Shown in pieces: positions 18,814 to 22,750 of a DNA stretch of 23,304 nt. The first letter of the stretch is position 1, and each line of letters opens with the position of its first letter. Source of the stretch: a virus; IMG/VR virus record IMGVR_UViG_3300046009_015188, positions 1-23,304 of that record; one strand, 5' to 3'. The translations under genes were made by a program, and so were the position numbers. Under the pieces are notes generated by a model that was given only the letters and a program-made list of their open reading frames with translations, searched no databases and had not been told where the DNA came from.

Positions 18814-19416
18814 ATGAAAAACTTTGCTACTTACCTCGCTGAAAGCGAAAAAACCTTTGATTATCGCATAAAATTTGTGGGTGATCTGCCTGAAAATTTT
18901 TTGAAGCAGTTCAAAGATCAACTGAAAAAGTTTGATCCCAAGAGCATTGGCGAAGTCAAGACCACACCGGTCATGAGTGAGCCTCAGGACTTTCCTGCCT
19001 ACAACAATGAGCGTGTGAGCATGATGGATGTGATCTTGCGCTATCCAGCCAATCGCCAGCAAGTGGCACAGATGGTAGAACTTTTGGGTGTATGCGAAGA
19101 TCGCATGGCCATCAATGAGTTACATTGGCAAGAAGGCATGGATGCTGAACTCTTGGGAATAGAAGAACAGGGTTCTCCTTTGTTGCTGTCGGATTATCCA
19201 GCTGATACCAAACAACAACGAGATCTAAAGAAAGATTACTCTGCCGTGGGCAAGGATCACGCCGTGGTCAAAAACTCAGCAGAGGCAGCAGAATGGACCG
19301 TGGCCGGGGGTCCGACTCCTGCTGCAGAAACCACCAACGACTTGCCTATGGGCGTGAAAAGCCCCATGACCACGATCAAACGGCCACCCAAGCCCCAAAC
19401 TGGATTCAGGAAATAA
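18814..19416 (+). CDS. Candidate internal/prohead-associated protein
   Basis: 200 residues. It begins MKNFATYLAES: ten residues, then L-A-E followed by Ser. This resembles the capsid-targeting peptide of T4 internal proteins (MKTYQEFIAE-A), which the prohead protease gp21 cuts after Glu10. The next ~95 residues (YRIKFVGDLPENFLKQFKDQ, SMMDVILRYPANRQQVAQMV) look like a small alpha/beta, ferredoxin-like domain. The C-terminal third (from about 130) is low-complexity, rich in Ala, Pro, Thr and Lys (PPKPQTGFRK). I recall similar proteins in aquatic T4-like phages with no assigned function. The role as a packaged or core protein is inferred from the N-terminus and late promoter only. Confidence 0.7.
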   Translation: MKNFATYLAESEKTFDYRIKFVGDLPENFLKQFKDQLKKFDPKSIGEVKTTPVMSEPQDFPAYNNERVSMMDVILRYPANRQQVAQMVELLGVCEDRMAINELHWQEGMDAELLGIEEQGSPLLLSDYPADTKQQRDLKKDYSAVGKDHAVVKNSAEAAEWTVAGGPTPAAETTNDLPMGVKSPMTTIKRPPKPQTGFRK

Positions 19417-19423
19417 GGAACTG

Positions 19424-21124
19424 ATGATGAACAACATGTACGATATACTGGCAAAACTCAACTCGGTCGGCAAACAAAATCTTACCGAAGGCAAGCGACC
19501 TGACTTCCTGGATCTGGACCGAGATGGTGATAAAAAAGAGCCCATGTCTCAAGCTGCCCGACAGGCCAAAGATAAAAAGCAAGTAGATGAGACCAGCATG
19601 GATGAATCTGCATTGCAAGCCTATCTTGGCAAAAAGAAATATGGCCAAGAAGGCATGAAGGCCTTGCAAAAAGCCGGTCGCGAAGGTGCTGGTAAAGAAA
19701 AAATGGCGAGCATCCGTTCTAAATATAACAAGATGGACGAAGCCGAGGTAGGCGAAGGCAACGACTTCACAGGCGCACGATTAGCCGCTATCAAAGCCGG
19801 CAAACCAACATTCCAAGTTGACGGCAAAACATACCGAGTCACTGGCGACACATCTGATGAGAAGGTCATGGAAAAAACTGTGTGGCCGGGCACCAAAGAA
19901 TACAAAACCCGGTATCCCGATGACATGCGTACCGGTGAAAAGCGTCGCAGTTCTACCGGCGGCGAGATTGAACGCACAGCCACTGGCGTGAAACACACAG
20001 CCAAGGCCTATGACGACGAGGAAGACACACTCGCAGCAGACGATGGCGCACCAAAGAAAAAAGGTCGTCCCAAAGGTTCAAAGCGTGCCCTGGGAGCCAA
20101 AGTCAAAGGCACATCGAAACTGCACATGAAAGGTGCTATCAAAGAAACTGATCTTGAAGAAGATTATGATCAAGATGAATACGACGAGGAAGGCGAGATG
20201 GCCAAGAGCCAGAGCCGTACCATCGCTGATGCCGCCGAAGAATTACAAAACATGCTGGGAGACAATGAGAATCTTCCAGAGTGGGTGCAGAAGAAGATCA
20301 CCTTGGCACAAGAATACATCGACTCTGCCCGTGATTATCTAGCAGCTAACCGCCCTGAGTCAGAAGTCATGGCAGAGAAAGCAGTGAGCAAGGCACAGCG
20401 TGCCGCTGCTGGTATCGCTCGTGCTGCACAAAAAGGCGAGATCCCAAAGAGTGAACTGCGTGGTGCCAGCAAAGAAATGGCCAAGATGCCCGCAGGCGAG
20501 TTGAAGAAATTCGCCAAGACCAAAGAAAAAGGTCTGCCAGAAAAGGTCAAAGAAGAAGACAAAGAAGAAGTAGAAGAGACCACAGTGGCAGGATCAGTGG
20601 CTCCGGCTGCAGAAGCACCCAAAGGCAAGAAAGGCATGATCTTTGGCAAAGGTGTTTACGAAAGCCAGATCGCTGAAAGTTTTGAAAAGAAACTGACCAA
20701 AGTTCTTACCGAAGGTATCTCGATCAACGCCAGCCAAGGCGAAGATGGCAAGAAGACCTTGACGGTCAACGCCACCGACGATGATGCTGTGAAACTAGGA
20801 CAATTGTTGCAACTGGCCGGCATGCCTCAAGGCAGCGGGTATCAGGATGCCTGCCCCTCCTGTGGTGGCATGCACGAAGGGGAGTGTTTGGAAGAAACAG
20901 ATCTGGCCAACAGTCCCGACGAGCAGACCATGGACACAGACATGATGATCAATACCATGAGTGGTGGTCTAAATGGTCGGAAGACCACTGGCCAGACCAC
21001 GGGTGCTCCATTCAATGCACAGCCCGCACGCCAAGGCGCACTGCATGGCAAGATGGAAGAAGTGGTAGAGTCTAACGAAGGGCGTTTGTGGAAATTATAC
21101 CAGCGGTACGAGACACGCAAATGA
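19424..21124 (+). CDS. Large basic/acidic low-complexity virion protein with AT-hook-like motif
   Basis: 566 residues. AAGGAA precedes a cluster of ATGs at 19424, 19427 and 19436; I keep the first, but MYDILAKLNS at 19436 may be the real start. Early on it has LTE-G (QNLTEGKRPD), a possible prohead-protease site, then LDLDRDGDKKEPMS, resembling a Ca-binding-type acidic loop. KKKGRPKGSKRALG near 211-224 contains a GRP core as in AT-hooks. Long stretches are Lys/Glu/Ala-rich and helical (AEKAVSKAQRAAAGIARAAQ, EEDKEEVEETTVAG). A second LTEG occurs at KVLTEGISINA, before a small domain (KTLTVNATDDDAVKLGQLLQ) and a possible zinc knuckle, CPSCGGMHEGEC. The composition suits a scaffold, core or DNA-associated internal protein. 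Function unproven. It overlaps the next gene by ATGA. Confidence 0.72.
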   Translation: MMNNMYDILAKLNSVGKQNLTEGKRPDFLDLDRDGDKKEPMSQAARQAKDKKQVDETSMDESALQAYLGKKKYGQEGMKALQKAGREGAGKEKMASIRSKYNKMDEAEVGEGNDFTGARLAAIKAGKPTFQVDGKTYRVTGDTSDEKVMEKTVWPGTKEYKTRYPDDMRTGEKRRSSTGGEIERTATGVKHTAKAYDDEEDTLAADDGAPKKKGRPKGSKRALGAKVKGTSKLHMKGAIKETDLEEDYDQDEYDEEGEMAKSQSRTIADAAEELQNMLGDNENLPEWVQKKITLAQEYIDSARDYLAANRPESEVMAEKAVSKAQRAAAGIARAAQKGEIPKSELRGASKEMAKMPAGELKKFAKTKEKGLPEKVKEEDKEEVEETTVAGSVAPAAEAPKGKKGMIFGKGVYESQIAESFEKKLTKVLTEGISINASQGEDGKKTLTVNATDDDAVKLGQLLQLAGMPQGSGYQDACPSCGGMHEGECLEETDLANSPDEQTMDTDMMINTMSGGLNGRKTTGQTTGAPFNAQPARQGALHGKMEEVVESNEGRLWKLYQRYETRK

Positions 21125-22077: not shown

Positions 22078-22359
22078 ATGCCTCAAGCAAATGTCTATAC
22101 TACAGTTTCAGCCGTAGCCTGGGCCACCGACAAGTGCAGGATCTCAACTGGCAACGCCGCGGTCACTTACAATGTCAACATGATAACTGGCACACCAACC
22201 ACGGGCAACATTTTCAGCAATGCCACATCTATTCCTGCCTATACCGCTTCGGATGTTTGGGTAGGAGTGGGTAATCAATTAACCATCACTGGCTCAAACT
22301 TCACCGCACAGGAAATTGGAACACAGACCAGCGGTCAACGAGCTGTACGCCAGGTCTAA
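22078..22359 (+). CDS. Small beta-rich conserved phage protein
   Basis: 93 residues with AAGGA upstream of the ATG. The sequence is Thr/Ala/Asn/Val-rich without charged helices (MPQANVYTTVSAVAWATDK, VWVGVGNQLTITGSNF), suggesting a beta-sandwich or small virion surface protein. It ends with TAQEIGTQTSGQRAVRQV. I recall small proteins beginning MPQAN and ending near ELGT-S in aquatic T4-like phages, of unknown role. Its stop overlaps the ribosome site AAGGAT of the next gene. Confidence 0.7.
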   Translation: MPQANVYTTVSAVAWATDKCRISTGNAAVTYNVNMITGTPTTGNIFSNATSIPAYTASDVWVGVGNQLTITGSNFTAQEIGTQTSGQRAVRQV

Positions 22360-22369
22360 GGATCCAATC

Positions 22370-22750
22370 GTGCGAGCCCGAGAATTCGTGGTGGAAGCCA
22401 GATCCTCGCGCCAAAGAGCCGATGCCAACCACGAATTTGATGTAGCACATCCTGGTCTGATTGGTCCACAGGCCAACGGCGATACCTACTGGGGGCGATA
22501 TTATGATTTCTATAGAGTGGCCAGCCTGGCAGGCATGGACATAGACAAACTGGAAAGCGCCGACGACATCAGTTTCTTTGGTAACTTGCCAGTGTTCTCG
22601 GCCTACACCGAGCACGATCGCCGTAAACTCTTTGCCATAATGAAAAAACTCGGCATGAAACCGCAGGAGCATGTGGGACCTGGCAGTTTTGAGCCAGACT
22701 ATGTGAATACTTCGAGTCCTGTCAAATCTTTCAGTGGTTATCCCAGATAG
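22370..22750 (+). CDS. Conserved phage protein of unknown function
   Basis: 126 residues from the GTG at 22370, chosen because AAGGAT (22358-22363) lies just upstream; an in-frame TTG at 22316 would overlap the preceding gene. The start MRAREFVVEAR again resembles the targeting peptide of T4 internal proteins (EF-x-x-E-A), here with Glu at residue 9. The rest has FDVAHPGLIGPQANGDTYWG, YYDFYRVASLAGMD, DDISFFGNLPVFSAYTEHDR and a basic helix LFAIMKKLGMKPQEHV, ending SSPVKSFSGYPR. I recall a family with these landmarks (AHPGLI, YYDFYR, GNLPVFSAYTE, SPVxSFxGY) in aquatic T4-like phages, unnamed. It lies 2 bases before the hydrolase gene. Confidence 0.75.
   Translation: MRAREFVVEARSSRQRADANHEFDVAHPGLIGPQANGDTYWGRYYDFYRVASLAGMDIDKLESADDISFFGNLPVFSAYTEHDRRKLFAIMKKLGMKPQEHVGPGSFEPDYVNTSSPVKSFSGYPR

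Follow-up and report, generated by a model that had tools for sequence, protein, structure and literature searches.

Capsid-targeting-like peptides and candidate prohead-protease sites at module joints in a late gene cluster of a T4-supergroup jumbo phage

Introduction

Why should neighbouring late genes of one phage, coding for proteins whose bodies show no detected similarity to each other, begin with much the same short peptide, and could that peptide take their products into the head? In T4, the internal proteins IPI, IPII and IPIII and the Alt protein carry capsid targeting sequences (PMC9026906, PMC9958956). Targeting of IPIII depends mainly on residues 4 and 7 of this sequence and processing on residues 8 and 10, and the motif cut by the gp21 protease is L/I-x-E (PMC9026906). 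A sequence-only reading of the DNA analysed here had proposed that four clustered genes have N-termini of this kind, that their products are targeted to the capsid and cut by a gp21-type protease, and that together they might form a set of proteins packaged into the head or building the prohead core, possibly injected with the DNA. We followed up this proposal by comparing the four genes with their relatives in other phages.

Results

The window, by which we mean the whole linear IMG/VR record IMGVR_UViG_3300046009_015188 of 23,304 bases, encodes a tail sheath, two tail tube proteins, and neck and head-completion proteins. The closest sheaths are those of three jumbo phages, Atu_ph07, Phosso and PA5oct, with identities of about 40%, and judged by this sequence the window is therefore part of the genome of an uncultivated jumbo phage of bacteria that belongs to the T4 supergroup. 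The cluster lies on the plus strand after the tail and head-completion genes, and consists of gene 1 (18814..19416, 200 aa), gene 2 (19424..21124, 566 aa), gene 3 (21121..22062, 313 aa) and gene 4 (22370..22750, 126 aa). In a Pfam search of these four, gene 2 matched DUF3008 only and the other three matched nothing significantly; no known effector domain was recognised. Elsewhere in the window, an ORF directly upstream of the tail sheath gene (11328-12161) resembles by eye a GIY-YIG homing endonuclease, and the gene truncated by the window end (22753-23304), which starts MCIIVAKYF...NRDRN, is by eye N-terminal-nucleophile acyltransferase-like; its full-length relative in the large related genome G010 had no Pfam match.

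All four peptides picked out by the sequence-only reading are present where it placed them, and three are classical tags: MKNFATYLAE|S of gene 1 (18814..18843, predicted cut after 18843), MKSLRDYITE|A of gene 3 (21121..21150) and the nine-residue (M)RAREFVVE|A of gene 4 (22370..22396). Gene 2 has a different N-terminus. The peptides of genes 1 and 3 are about 10 residues long, and their positions 4 and 7 are hydrophobic or aromatic; that of gene 4 is one residue shorter. An L/I-x-E-like motif stands right before the predicted mature protein in all three (L8-x-E10, invariant, in gene 1; I/L-x-E in most relatives of gene 3; I/V/L-x-E in gene 4). Relatives of these three genes start at the same residues, so the start choices hold; the start of gene 3 is further supported by an ATGA overlap with the gene 2 stop, and the GTG start of gene 4 is preceded by AAGGA. 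So short a motif might be expected to arise by chance, but this explanation is refuted statistically and we consider it practically negligible. The strict pattern M[KR]x2-4[FY][LIV]xE matches 19 of 1114 called gene starts in six large relatives and the window, against 4 of 4838 internal Met codons, and 17 of the 19 fall in this late cluster, although homologues in these counts, as in the site counts below, are not independent and the statistics overstate significance. The matches in the window are genes 1, 3 and 4 only. In the 345 kb relative G018, five of 419 genes match, four of them inside the same 5 kb cluster, where they correspond to gene 1, gene 3 and two copies of gene 4. A single credible match, the gene 1 homologue, was found among the 810 called ORFs of Atu_ph07. 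The conservation of genes 1 and 4, described below, likewise argues against chance.

Similar peptides also occur away from the cluster. MRAxEF-type tags begin small proteins with different bodies in L263 (707-1375, minus strand), L120 (from 5183), L158 (about 7001-7285, minus strand) and L013, none of which gave a Pfam match. Several tag-like N-termini are seen in the marine T4-like isolates Melnitz-3, C48C1 and S-SCSM1 (L176, L177, L179), including those of NMNAT-like enzymes. The NMNAT of S-SCSM1 begins MKSFLQFLKE|A and is reported in virions. The S-SCSM1 study identified 45 virion proteins by MS (PMC9602691); most virion proteins of this phage have no tag, which counts against our reading.

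Gene 1 consists of the tag and a core assigned to phrog_14802 (virion structural protein). It has 68 relatives. In the 39 that were aligned, Y7, L8 and E10 are invariant, M1, K2 and S11 nearly so, and F or L occupies position 4 with few exceptions; positions 4, 7, 8 and 10 are the ones that govern targeting and processing of T4 IPIII. In a structure model the tag is a short helix and the core is ferredoxin-like; we dropped any assignment of function from this fold, as S6-like ferredoxin folds are too common. The phrog_14802 profile (E 3.8e-6 for the window gene, 6.2e-9 for PA5oct gp282) links gene 1 to PA5oct gp282, Phosso gp408 and a gene of Atu_ph07. The Atu_ph07 protein is AUZ94910.1 (L099 34229-34984; MF403008.1 about 84393-85148, minus strand), and its annotated start seems to be about 29 codons too late, as a longer frame exists with MKTLQDYLTE|S at its N-terminus. 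Gene order around gp282 in PA5oct is the same, and the annotation of gp282 records its detection in virions by ESI-MS/MS.

The PA5oct and Phosso homologues keep positions 4 and 7 but have no E10, and gp282 also has no L8, which counts against the proposed cutting. In T4, Asp at position 10 blocks processing and still allows targeting (PMC9026906), and by this analogy, because E10 is absent, the gene 1 protein is probably targeted in PA5oct and Phosso yet not cut there. The missing E10 would also fit a different role of the shared N-termini, for example as a helix that docks on the neck or tail with neither core targeting nor cutting, and the position of the cluster after the tail and head-completion genes is in line with this. 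A docking helix, however, would not need E10, which is invariant among the 39 aligned relatives down to 38% identity, and the same L-x-E rule recurs at the internal joints of genes 2 and 3; we therefore regard the docking explanation as quite improbable.

Gene 4 belongs to a multi-copy family of proteins of about 120-135 aa, with MRA[RK]EF[IV]xE at the N-terminus, SP[VI]xxFxGY at the C-terminus and a middle that differs strongly between members. Both end motifs in strict form are present in 43 proteins, and several phages have two or three copies near each other. M1, R2, A3, E5, F6 and E9 are invariant in 25 aligned sequences. For the conserved C-terminal tail (SPVKSFSGYPR in the window, 22715..22747) we found no known counterpart to the pattern SP[VI]xxFxGYPR. 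A C-terminal likeness between PPxPxTGFxK of gene 1 and PVKxFxGYPR of gene 4 was rejected after it was lost in distant gene 1 relatives, and the structure model of gene 4 was set aside as poor (pLDDT 50).

In gene 3 the tag is followed by a variable middle and a C-terminal phrog_7595 domain (21793-22059). Most relatives begin MKxL[KR][DE]Y[ILF]xE, and the length of the middle is very different among them; the relative in G010 starts MPGLKHYIDLVEN and does not keep E10, which counts against the pattern. The proposal that gene 3 encodes a tagged protein is well supported by sequence, and to it we add a second, internal candidate site, I-G-E (21784..21792), directly before the phrog_7595 domain, which in relatives begins AEYQGR. 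At this border the preceding residue is E in 70 of 90 copies, D in 18, all on contigs that are fragments, and Met in two. Of the 70 E-type borders, 62 show L, I, V or M in the P3 position, while the 18 D-type borders count against the rule. The D-type fusions read LFD|A or EED|A (L192, L195-L197, L200, L203, L204, L208-L210, L213, L215, L218, L222, L226, L228, L229 and L238). In L235 an MRAHEFIE tag is joined straight onto the domain. All four complete isolate genomes with a protease (HTVC008M, Melnitz-3, C48C1 and immuto) have phrog_7595 fused behind L-E-E, M-M-E, L-T-E or L-D-E, whereas none of the 11 complete genomes without a detected protease has such a fused site. In these 11 the proteins are mostly short (longer, 229 aa, in CRP-6) and have the domain at their N-terminus or close to it, and seven of them start M-A[KT]Y[KQ]. 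As the split also follows phage type, it is supportive, rather than proof, of the internal site being a protease site.

Gene 2, with 16 [LIVM]xE sites, is a candidate multi-site polyprotein of the prohead core, or a cargo polyprotein. The L-T-E-G expected 18 residues after its third ATG is indeed there, at residues 20-23 of the protein with E as the 18th residue from that ATG (first site, L-T-E|G, 19481..19489), and looks like a conserved cut site; as a capsid targeting sequence the N-terminus did not hold up. Relatives begin MYDILxKL or FFYDLNKKL, and most have LxE at a variable distance from there. The 54 non-redundant relatives are mosaics in which the order of modules differs. In the window, a GKKKYG module (19598..19729) follows M-D-E|S, an M-A-E| site and the DUF3008 module after it (PF11450, 1.3e-14) occupy 20369..20548, and an L-T-E|G site (20705..20734) precedes a C-terminal GMNIS-like module. 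Across relatives, [LIVM]xE precedes 18 of 19 GKKKYG copies, 30 of 30 DUF3008 copies and 16 of 16 GMNIS copies, against a background of 0.025 per residue, and E stands at P1 in all 19 GKKKYG copies. L, I, V or M is found two residues before E at a frequency of 0.273 in gene 2 relatives, compared to a base of 0.160. In 32 divergent relatives [LIM]xE[ASG] occurs 164 times, where shuffles give 57 +/- 7; control proteins of the same phages are not enriched (139 observed, 118 +/- 11 expected). The window protein alone has its 16 broad sites where 5.7 are expected. DUF3008 is the only module of gene 2 for which a stand-alone copy was seen in the loci examined, and queries with modules A/B and DUF3008 matched few or no annotated phage records. 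PA5oct gp281, whose likeness to gene 2 is limited to its position and its richness in sites, is also marked as found in virions by ESI-MS/MS. In S-SCSM1 the DUF3008 protein that stands alone is listed as a virion protein, and adjoins a protein that shares the KPDFLDLDKDG segment of gene 2.

The window, being a fragment, contains no protease gene. Among 18 records of relatives, a Peptidase_S77 (gp21-type) protease was found in 10 and a gp23 capsid protein in 12, and the genes for protease, a scaffold-like protein and MCP are neighbours. A search of these genes for the same peptide, proposed along with the sequence-only reading, revealed no copy of a capsid targeting peptide. It did show L-x-E sites, in line with the motif cut by gp21 (PMC9026906), at which cutting may take place: [YC]LRE close to the N-terminus of the protease, and L[ML]E|G, ILE|N and YL[KR]E|[NS] in the arm of the MCP. 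That the cluster proteins act as scaffold only, shaping the head before being cut to peptides and expelled with nothing delivered, would make gene 2 similar to T4 gp67, gp68 or gp22. Processing breaks the core proteins of T4 into many fragments (PMC9026906), and the gene 2 protein is acidic and lysine-rich with many sites. Yet relatives have the separate scaffold-like gene between protease and MCP, the bodies of the gene 1 and gene 4 proteins are conserved and contain few internal sites, and purified virions still contain gene 1 homologues, the PA5oct protein at the gene 2 position and, in S-SCSM1, the stand-alone DUF3008 protein. Taken together, we consider a purely scaffolding role unlikely.

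Discussion

We propose that the prohead core of this T4-supergroup jumbo phage is probably where the proteins of the cluster are taken up and then cut, by a protease of the gp21 type (Peptidase_S77). Targeting and cutting are highly likely for genes 1, 3 and 4, given the conserved T4 positions of their N-termini, the protease of relatives and the virion detection in PA5oct, and here the sequence-only reading is well supported, while gene 2 has no capsid targeting sequence. Their 9-10 residue peptide would dock the protein on the core by its hydrophobic and aromatic residues (for genes 1 and 3, those at positions 4 and 7), [LIV]-x-E would let the S77 protease remove the peptide, and the body would stay in the head with the DNA. 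In gene 2, and at the second site of gene 3, small modules would be strung together with protease sites between them, and several products could come from a single chain. We incline, by a small margin of confidence, to the view that genes 2 and 3 are such module-releasing polyproteins, which would probably yield several products. The suggestion that the cluster forms a packaged set is partly supported by the detection in PA5oct virions of a clear gene 1 homologue and of the protein at the gene 2 position; in the phage of the window, docking, cutting, retention and packaging are expected from sequence relationships. Injection into the host with early action there is possible, by analogy to the T4 internal proteins and Alt.

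It is about an even question whether these jumbo phages load their heads by means of mosaic polyproteins, in which small cargo modules are shuffled between phages together with a prohead-protease site at each joint. If so, a module inserted between two [LIVM]-x-E sites would thereby become packaged and released, the maturation protease would also free cargo from polyproteins, and such proteins would stand beside the multi-copy family of small tagged proteins, MRAREF...GYPR. Our reading would extend the T4 capsid-targeting system beyond E. coli phages, to jumbo phages that are uncultivated and to T4-like phages of marine origin. It gives a simple sequence rule to predict which phage proteins without known function are carried in the head, and may be a source of new packaging tags.

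Our literature search, mainly outside subscription journals, found no reports of capsid targeting peptides in these jumbo phages, or of prohead-protease polyproteins like genes 2 and 3, and a review has already suggested that T4-like phages can package varied proteins by means of capsid targeting peptides (PMC9026906). We also set aside phrog_2667 (internal head protein) as a link to the T4 internal proteins, as one marginal match was followed by none in a genome search of 12 records. In PA5oct, gp282 is like gene 1 in homology, gene order and presence in virions, and unlike it in the missing L8 and E10. The polyvalent proteins of phages and conjugative elements, which are multidomain, thought to be packaged and sometimes proteolytically released (PMC5512222), are the nearest published concept; a peptidase is embedded in the chain of these proteins, whereas the prohead protease would cut in trans here. 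T4 gp22, gp67 and gp68 are similar to gene 2 in having multiple protease sites per chain, but in gene 2 the modules are shuffled as in a mosaic and the sites stand at their borders. The closest likeness is to the T4 internal proteins and Alt, which share with the cluster an N-terminal peptide of about 10 residues with key residues 4, 7, 8 and 10, an L/I-x-E cut and a gp21-type protease; the T4 internal proteins also have similar tags on unlike bodies, as does the gene 4 family. In contrast to the T4 internal proteins, the bodies of the cluster proteins have no detected relation to them, the genes adjoin tail tube and terminase genes, two of them have further internal sites, and the gene 4 family has a conserved C-terminus. 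The cluster is best regarded as a further, modified form of T4 capsid targeting, with putative internal cut sites at module joints.
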